Part shown: positions 44,286-45,505 of the stretch, in pieces | Position numbering within the stretch: position 1 is the stretch's first letter | Layout: the number at the start of each line of letters is the position of its first letter | Assembly (NCBI GenBank): GCA_016124845.1 | Contig: WGMW01000016.1 | Location: 1 to 64,000, forward strand | From: Flavobacteriales bacterium | GTDB taxonomy: Bacteria; Bacteroidota; Bacteroidia; UBA10329 | Direction: 5' to 3' | Length of the DNA stretch: 64,000 nt | The notes under the pieces: model-generated | The model's database searches: none | What the model was told of the DNA's origin: nothing | The model's input: the letters and a program-made list of their open reading frames with translations, nothing else | Made by a program: the position numbers and the translations under genes

Positions 44286-45182
44286 TTATGCCCGTGGATG
44301 GGCGAGTTTATAAATCTGCGTTAACTTCTCAATTGTATTGTGTGTGTACACCTGTGTTGCGGAAAGATTGGCGTGGCCGAGCAACTCTTTAATGGCATTG
44401 AGGTCTGCCCCATTATTGAGCATGTGGGTTGCAAACGTGTGCCTGAGAATATGTGGACTCTTCTTTCCAATGGTGGTTACTAATCGAAGGTACTTATTCA
44501 CTTTTCGATAAACAAATCCTTCCGACATCTGATTTCCGTGGTCGTCAATCAACAGATACTTGCTTGAATCTGAAGTCGAAAACTGCTGTTCGACAAGTTG
44601 ACGATATGCATGTACAAGGTCGATCATTTGCGAGGTTAACGGGATGATCCGTTCCTTATTTCGCTTTCCGAGAACCTTCAGCTCGTTTTTAGATTTATTA
44701 ACATTTGCCAGCTGTAGACCGATTAGTTCTGCCCGTCTCATTCCCGTGCAATAGAGCAACTCGATCAGCAACTTGTCGCGTACGCCTTCCACGCCCTCCC
44801 CGAATTCCATGCGATCGAGCAGATTCTCCATCTGCGCCTGCTCCAGAAAAAGTGGGAGTTTCTTTTTGGTTTTGAGAGATGTGATGCGCGCCATCGGGTT
44901 TTTGACCACAATGCCATTTCGCACCATATACTTATAAAATGACCGCAGACAGGAAATTTTGCGGTTTACCGTTGTTGCCTGAAGTTTCTCATCCTCCAAA
45001 ATGGAAACGATCCAGGAGCGGATGTCGTGATGATCGACCTCCTCAATGGAAGTGATCTGAAGATTCTCTGAGATGTGGTGGAGGAACTGCTCAAGGTCCT
45101 TTTGATAAGCAAGAACCGTGTGCTGGGAAAATCGTTTTTCCTTCTGGATGTAATCTATGAACCCCGCTACGATCTTCTCCAT
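44286..45182 (-). CDS. Tyrosine recombinase XerC-like
   Basis: 298 residues. The N-terminal SAM-like core-binding domain (FIDYIQKEKRFSQHTVLAYQKDLEQFL) and catalytic domain are complete: Arg in CTGMRRAEL (about 149), HILRHTFATH (about 243-252), GHANLSATQVYTH with the nucleophilic Tyr (about 278). It belongs to the XerC/D family that resolves chromosome dimers at dif. Being in the conserved xerC-hpf-tuf context, it is a housekeeping recombinase and not a mobile-element integrase. The rpsU terminator T tract runs directly into its ATG. Confidence 0.92.
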   Translation of the reverse strand: MEKIVAGFIDYIQKEKRFSQHTVLAYQKDLEQFLHHISENLQITSIEEVDHHDIRSWIVSILEDEKLQATTVNRKISCLRSFYKYMVRNGIVVKNPMARITSLKTKKKLPLFLEQAQMENLLDRMEFGEGVEGVRDKLLIELLYCTGMRRAELIGLQLANVNKSKNELKVLGKRNKERIIPLTSQMIDLVHAYRQLVEQQFSTSDSSKYLLIDDHGNQMSEGFVYRKVNKYLRLVTTIGKKSPHILRHTFATHMLNNGADLNAIKELLGHANLSATQVYTHNTIEKLTQIYKLAHPRA

Positions 45183-45219
45183 AAAAAAATTCCAGTCAGT
45201 ACTTGTCTAACTGGAATTT
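45183..45219 (-). terminator. Terminator of rpsU, abutting the xerC start
   Basis: On the minus strand AAATTCCAGT and ACTGGAATTT form a perfect 10-bp stem (45210-45219 with 45187-45196), 13-nt loop, then a T tract that ends at the A of the xerC ATG (45182). Confidence 0.85.
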
Positions 45220-45254: not shown

Positions 45255-45446
45255 CTACTCTTCTTCTTTTCTCAAAGACTGAACGTATGCAGCTTTTTTG
45301 ATCTCTGTTCTGCGGGCCACAGAAGGTTTCGTGTATTCCTTTCTGTTTCGCAGTTCGCGCATAGCACCTGTTTTGTCAAACTTACGCTTGAATTTCTTCA
45401 AACTTCTTTCGATGCTCTCGCCTTCTTTAACTGGAATGATCAACAT
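45255..45446 (-). CDS. rpsU: 30S ribosomal protein S21
   Basis: 63 residues, full S21: VKEGESIERSLKKFKRKFDKTGAMRELRNRKEYTKPSVAR. In Bacteroidota ribosomes, bS21 with bS18 and bS6 holds the 3' end of 16S rRNA and hides the anti-Shine-Dalgarno sequence. The gene has a strong Shine-Dalgarno (AAAGGAGGT) ending 7 nt before the ATG, the only one I noticed in the window. The published model is that S21-deficient ribosomes preferentially translate rpsU, giving autoregulation. It has its own promoter and terminator. Confidence 0.97.
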   Translation of the reverse strand: MLIIPVKEGESIERSLKKFKRKFDKTGAMRELRNRKEYTKPSVARRTEIKKAAYVQSLRKEEE

Positions 45447-45453
45447 GTCTTTT

Positions 45454-45462
45454 ACCTCCTTT
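45454..45462 (-). promoter_or_regulatory. Strong Shine-Dalgarno of rpsU
   Basis: AAAGGAGGT on the minus strand, complementary to the 16S rRNA 3' end, 7 nt before the rpsU ATG. Confidence 0.9.
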
Positions 45463-45478
45463 TGTTCAAAATGGGCTG

Positions 45479-45486
45479 CAAAGATA
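45479..45486 (-). promoter_or_regulatory. -7 promoter box of rpsU
   Basis: TATCTTTG on the minus strand (exact TAnnTTTG), about 33 nt before the ATG, leaving a leader long enough to carry the Shine-Dalgarno. Confidence 0.65.
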
Positions 45487-45505
45487 ACTTTTTCAATGAA
45501 TCGAA

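Follow-up and report, generated by a model that had tools for sequence, protein, structure and literature searches.

A borderline-strong Shine-Dalgarno sequence before rpsU in a Flavobacteriales bacterium whose readable congeners lack the full pairing

The rpsU locus and the published model

The window, i.e., the whole stretch of 64,000 nucleotides analysed here (Flavobacteriales bacterium, assembly GCA_016124845.1, contig WGMW01000016.1, positions 1 to 64,000), contains a gene for ribosomal protein bS21, rpsU, which gave the only bS21 match in its assembly (Table 1). In the sense of the minus strand, the leader runs from TATCTTTG through CAGCCCATTTTGAACA to the extended Shine-Dalgarno (SD) sequence AAAGGAGGT, followed by AAAAGAC and the ATG (45446-45444). 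The motif TAnnTTTG, by which TATCTTTG was identified, is taken by us to be the -7 promoter box of Bacteroidota. The initial annotation had described a strong SD at a distance of 7 nt from the rpsU ATG, with a -7 box upstream of it, and the re-read sequence agrees with this description exactly. A terminator-like hairpin lies between rpsU and the next gene, which we presume to be XerC-type from its own sequence and from the usual gene order. By eye, a close form of the AATTCCAGT/ACTGGAATT hairpin is present in 6/7 genus genomes, and another stem is found in G006.

Table 1. Features of the rpsU locus in the window
Feature	Position	Strand	Basis
rpsU, bS21, 63 aa, Tyr54 present	45255..45446	-	ORF; PF01165 match, E 3.4e-16
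Spacer AAAAGAC, 7 nt, SD to start codon	45447..45453	-	sequence read
Extended SD of rpsU, AAAGGAGGT	45454..45462	-	9-nt complement of the 16S 3' tail in class relatives
TATCTTTG, match to -7 promoter box	45479..45486	-	compared with presumed Bacteroidota consensus TAnnTTTG
Terminator-like hairpin AATTCCAGT...ACTGGAATT, then T run abutting the next ATG	45183..45218	-	by eye
XerC-type recombinase ORF (presumed), next gene downstream of rpsU	44286..45182	-	sequence

Autoregulation of bS21 via an extended rpsU SD was shown in F. johnsoniae, where the 16S tail of normal ribosomes is masked by bS21, bS18, and bS6 (McNutt et al., 2023, PMC9976891), and this interpretation of the rpsU SD is therefore already published. 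The strong rpsU SD is presented there as a clear case in which a specialised ribosome controls a single bacterial gene, an exceptionally strong SD is argued to be required, and the criteria are a pairing of at least 9 bp and a predicted energy below -13 kcal/mol, which about 20% of Flavobacteriales, mostly Blattabacteriaceae, fail. The window species shares with F. johnsoniae the gene, the position of the site, the AGGAGG core, Tyr54 of bS21, and the lack of general SD usage in the genome. In contrast, its pairing amounts to 9 bp and about -13 kcal/mol, compared with about -20 kcal/mol in F. johnsoniae. Set against the published limits, the site has 9 bp and an energy of -13.0 (contiguous helix) or -13.6 kcal/mol (duplexfold), neither of which is the published free_scan measure, and the tail used is that of relatives. 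The site stands at the very edge of the published strength, which is new here. Because 16S rRNA was found in 0/9 assemblies of the genus, both by a tail pattern with 3 mismatches and by RF00177, we infer the anti-Shine-Dalgarno (ASD) sequence, its sequestration, and autoregulation in the genus, the window species included, from relatives and from McNutt et al. (2023).

Strength and rarity of the rpsU pairing

The ASD pairing of predicted starts was scored by duplexfold, in which loops are allowed (783 starts, 864,000 bases), and as contiguous-helix energy (the same 783 starts, then 1,523 starts from 1,664,000 bases, or 38.2% of the 4,359,145-base assembly). A simple hexamer-based gene finder supplied the starts, so some of those scored are misplaced. 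By duplexfold, rpsU was first of the 59 scored window genes with -13.6 kcal/mol, followed by a runner-up at -10.3 kcal/mol. Such scoring had been proposed in the initial annotation; extended to the 1,523 starts, it placed the contiguous pairing of rpsU (-13.0 kcal/mol) in a tie for first, and only 2/1,523 starts, rpsU included, are that strong, which is unusual for a gene named in advance. The tied start is L212:10168-12879 (L009/L212), whose scored ATG is probably misplaced because a TATTTTTG box lies 69 nt downstream of the SD-like site and a sequence resembling a lipoprotein signal, judged by eye, follows further in.

The helix formed by rpsU depends on the tail assumed, being 9 bp with AACACCUCCUUUCU and 11 bp with AAUACCUCCUUUUU, both of which were taken from relatives in the class and the latter of which occurs in several of them. 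The chance maximum for one gene per genome, extrapolated in the manner of McNutt et al. (2023), is about -15.7 kcal/mol, and the mock value is -16.0 kcal/mol. Since -13.0 kcal/mol falls short of the extrapolated -15.7 kcal/mol, rpsU lies inside the chance range for a genome-wide maximum. If the 16S tail were AAUACCUCCUUUUU, the 11 bp helix would reach -15.3 kcal/mol, compared with an extrapolated -16.0 kcal/mol. In F. johnsoniae, by comparison, rpsU exceeds chance by about 8 kcal/mol (PMC9976891), whereas rpsU of the window species is no clear genome-wide outlier.

By comparing real starts with a mock region 23-42 nt upstream of the start, SD-like sites were not clearly commoner than mock overall in this genome. 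With the contiguous helix, there were fewer real than mock sites at -4 to -6 kcal/mol (56 vs 60 at -6 kcal/mol or stronger), somewhat more at -7, -8, and -9 kcal/mol (real/mock 42/37, 25/16, and 18/12), and 7/7, 4/5, 2/3, and 2/1 at -10 to -13 kcal/mol. One mock site among the 1,523 starts reaches -14 kcal/mol or stronger, which counts against the explanation that we favour below. With duplexfold, mock sites outnumbered SD-like sites throughout the range of -3 to -11 kcal/mol (783 starts).

Searched genome-wide, the pattern AAAGGAGGT-N3-11-ATG gave 10 matches, compared with 8 for the reversed control, and rpsU is the only credible start among the 10. The other nine were rejected as SD genes: 5/9 precede frames only 6 to 32 codons long, 3/9 lie inside longer frames (one of these three, L012, inside an ATP-synthase-beta-like frame, named by eye), and the ninth (L009/L212) has the TATTTTTG box downstream of the site. 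The looser AAGGAGG-N3-12-ATG gave 111 matches vs 91 for its control, compared as raw counts. As a second SD gene, rpsR was considered and rejected: no AGGAGG-type site precedes bS18 in 8/8 genus genomes with a match (G007 has none), and their rpsR leaders carry at most AAGGA or AAAG near the ATG. The remark of the initial annotation that no comparable site was noticed before the other genes is supported in that rpsU tops the scored starts and no clear general SD enrichment is seen; there is the one tie, and the energy lies within the chance range.

rpsU leaders in the genus and across the class

The genus, the only one compared for its order, was sampled with nine genomes, of which seven, the window species included, have a bS21 match. 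Where the window has AAAGGAGGT, one change is found in G004 (AAAGGAGTT), G001 (AAAGGAAGT), and G007 (AAACGAGGT), two in G002 (AAAAGAGGA) and G005 (AATAGAGGT), and three in G006 (AAAGGAATA), in which the alignment is less sure; the fourth base of the 9-mer is changed in three congeners. Loss of the site in close relatives was one of two results named as refuting in the initial annotation, a yardstick that McNutt et al. (2023) did not set, and it was observed: the 9-mer is broken in 6/6 congeners with a readable rpsU and intact in the window species alone among the seven. Judged from the aligned leaders, the rpsU SD is thus not conserved among its own congeners, which is new here and is a further difference from F. 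johnsoniae; no account of rpsU SD erosion within one genus was found in the available portions of the literature (including PMC9976891, PMC8710568, PMC10783764, and PMC9723584). The congener pairing is -5.4 to -7.5 kcal/mol as a contiguous helix; the alternative tail gives -5.5 to -8.5 kcal/mol, and duplexfold gives -6.0 to -8.8 kcal/mol. The -7 box reads TATCTTTG in five of the seven leaders and TATTTTTG in two, and the tail-binding residue Tyr54 of bS21 is present in 7/7 sequences, in the window species and in 6/6 congeners (by eye).

A plurality consensus built from the six congener leaders, with the window excluded, is identical to the window leader across the 40 columns that reach from the -7 box to the start codon; a single column, which lies outside the nine bases, is a tie. 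The intact 9-mer is therefore most likely the ancestral state in the genus. In the RF2 tree, the five closest congeners group together (support 86/83, not starred, bootstrap not settled), with the window species (G000) as their sister; the GGAGG core is substituted in each of these five, and a hand count on the tree requires at least five core changes among them. A faster or slower evolution of the core relative to its flanks was considered and set aside, the difference not being significant (7/30 changed cells in the core vs 23/162 in the flanks, p = 0.27; without G006, 5/25 vs 15/135, p = 0.32).

One way to read these leaders is that the genus keeps a moderate regulatory SD, for which 5 to 8 paired bases suffice, and that the window 9-mer is one point around the consensus. 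A purine-rich SD-like stretch does occur in 7/7 leaders at a roughly constant distance from the ATG, with energies of -5.4 to -13.0 kcal/mol, and rpsR SDs of -7 to -14 kcal/mol have been described in the class (PMC9976891). We consider this improbable, in view of the exceptionally strong SD for which McNutt et al. (2023) argue, of the 17 to 46 of 783 starts in the window species that match congener strength (8 to 37 if the alternative tail is used), and of the core, in which no extra conservation is detectable.

Beyond the genus, a scan for bS21 was evaluated for the best 80 of 525 loci, and an AGGAGG leader stands at the same place in 75 of these 80; 54 of the 75 have at least nine consecutive Watson-Crick pairs and 21 have seven or eight, the AACACCUCCUUUCU tail being assumed. 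The five of the best 80 loci without such a leader are L088, L092, and three that belong to the window genus (L015, L017, and L018, i.e., congeners G002, G007, and G001). The comparison for the rest of the class took in 48 leaders, most families being represented by one genome, and 7/48 (G012, G017, G028, G031, G047, G051, and G053) have at least nine pairs including GGAG or a co-changed form, three of them scored against their own tail and four against an assumed one. A Flagellimonas leader pairs over 11 bp with -17.5 kcal/mol, compared with 9 bp and about -13 kcal/mol in the window. In G011 and G057, which have a very similar leader layout, the rpsU SD is absent and the prfB frameshift is kept, and this too counts against the explanation that we favour. 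In G048 (L144), two equally scoring bS21 matches are separated by about 1.1 kb, which may reflect a tandem duplication or an assembly artefact.

The canonical form of the 16S tail is ACCUCCUUU, and leader and tail have changed together in G028 (tail AACATCTCATTTTA, leader AAAATGAGATGT) and G047 (tail AATACCTCC, leader GAAAGGAGGTAT). In Chryseobacterium and its kin, the rpsU SD co-varies with an altered ASD, UCUCA (Jha et al., 2021, via PMC8710568 and PMC9976891); that system shows that rpsU SD-ASD pairing is selected, and G028 looks like such a case. The apparent erosion could accordingly be co-evolution, the leaders of the genus following a changed 16S tail of their own, and variant tails of this kind do exist in the class (G016 AACATCTCC, G028 AACATCTCA), in two genomes that both lack the prfB frameshift. 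This is nevertheless very improbable: the changes in the congener leaders fall at several positions, so that one new tail could not restore them all, and an altered ASD in the window species was rejected because its rpsU pairs less well with both natural variants (-11.3 kcal/mol with the G016-type tail, -3.2 kcal/mol with the G028-type tail). G016 was also rejected as a sister lineage, since the RF2 tree, with bootstrap not settled, places it apart from the genus.

The prfB frameshift and the fate of the bS21 loop

The programmed frameshift of prfB, with its internal SD, is the other element of the class that needs ASD pairing (McNutt, 2021, PMC8710568), and it is absent from the window genus: prfB is one uninterrupted frame in 8/8 genus genomes with a full-length match (L156-L163), the window species included, while G003, which has no such match, was left out of the count. 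Among the class relatives with RF2, a CTTTGA or CTTTAA slip-site sequence near the prfB start is found in 42/49 (G043, in which no RF2 was found, is outside the 49) and is absent from 7/49, namely G016, G023, G026, G028, G032, G055, and G058. The published class-wide count of prfB frameshifts is 523 of 726. By eye, GGAGG or GGGGG precedes the slip site in 37/42. Slip-site-like sequences with neither motif before them occur in G018, G024, G009, G020, and G041 (L231, L243, L261, L232, and L220); in the last three of these genomes the RF2 frame is open further upstream, so they may not be frameshift sites. The absence of the frameshift in the genus fits a loss of ASD function and alone does not show it, because the frameshift is absent from G058 although its tail keeps the canonical core ACCTCC. 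A link between rpsU SD and prfB frameshift across the class was also looked for and dropped, since no clear pattern emerged: rpsU was labelled strong in 9/41 genomes with a slip-site label and in 1/7 without, where strong means any eight consecutive pairs including A-rich runs (G019, G020), 35/48 leaders were scored with assumed tails, G043 carried the frameshift label although it yielded no prfB, and G009 was represented by one of its two copies.

The main rival to the reading that we favour is a relic: the whole genus would have lost bS21 autoregulation, the window 9-mer would simply not have been substituted so far, and rpsU would be translated like any other A-rich SD-less mRNA of the class. 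This would fit the six broken 9-mers, the position of the window species beside five congeners that are each substituted in the GGAGG core, the similar rates of change in core and flanks, and the missing prfB frameshift. However, the window species retains every one of the nine positions, and each of the five closest congeners has changed just one or two of them, which would fit weak selection for a moderate SD as well. We regard the relic as rather unlikely. It counts against the reading that we favour that the window species may differ from the six congeners by luck alone.

We hypothesize, with somewhat more confidence than doubt, that the site is the ancestral autoregulatory SD of Bacteroidota rpsU in its weakest still intact form, belonging to a loop that is perhaps in use here and is eroding in the genus. 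In normal ribosomes of the window species, to judge from F. johnsoniae, bS21, bS18, and bS6 would hide the 16S tail; in a ribosome without bS21, the tail would be free and would pair with nine or more bases of the rpsU site, and bS21 would then be made until the ribosomes are replete. In the genus, the rpsU element would be under little constraint; with the full 9-mer retained, the loop may still be in use in the window species, and the six readable congeners have lost full pairing. The claim of the initial annotation that the site fits the published autoregulation model is supported in part, by the site itself, its top rank, Tyr54, and the published experiments, and is weakened by the 9-mer broken in 6/6 congeners, the energy at the edge of the cut-off, and the missing prfB frameshift. 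Moreover, a genus that keeps or weakens this SD, with much the same leader layout, offers natural variants by which the pairing needed and the dispensability of the loop can be gauged.

A more tentative proposal, which we think somewhat more likely to be wrong than right, is that the genus is abandoning rRNA-mRNA pairing as a whole, with the prfB frameshift gone from every member that has a full-length gene, the rpsU SD broken separately in several species, and the window species left as the last intact carrier seen. If true, the genus would provide a natural series in which the extent of pairing required by the bS21 loop could be gauged.

On viral contigs (L265-L326), 60 bS21 genes were scored, and 18 of the 78 loci were omitted, in which the match does not begin at the first residue. 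With the canonical tail, the SD reaches -13 kcal/mol in 0/60, the best value being -9.7 kcal/mol, so viral bS21 may escape the host loop. Many of these loci are near-identical, the L324 match lacks a start codon, and L265, whose leader matches the one in G028, resembles a host copy.
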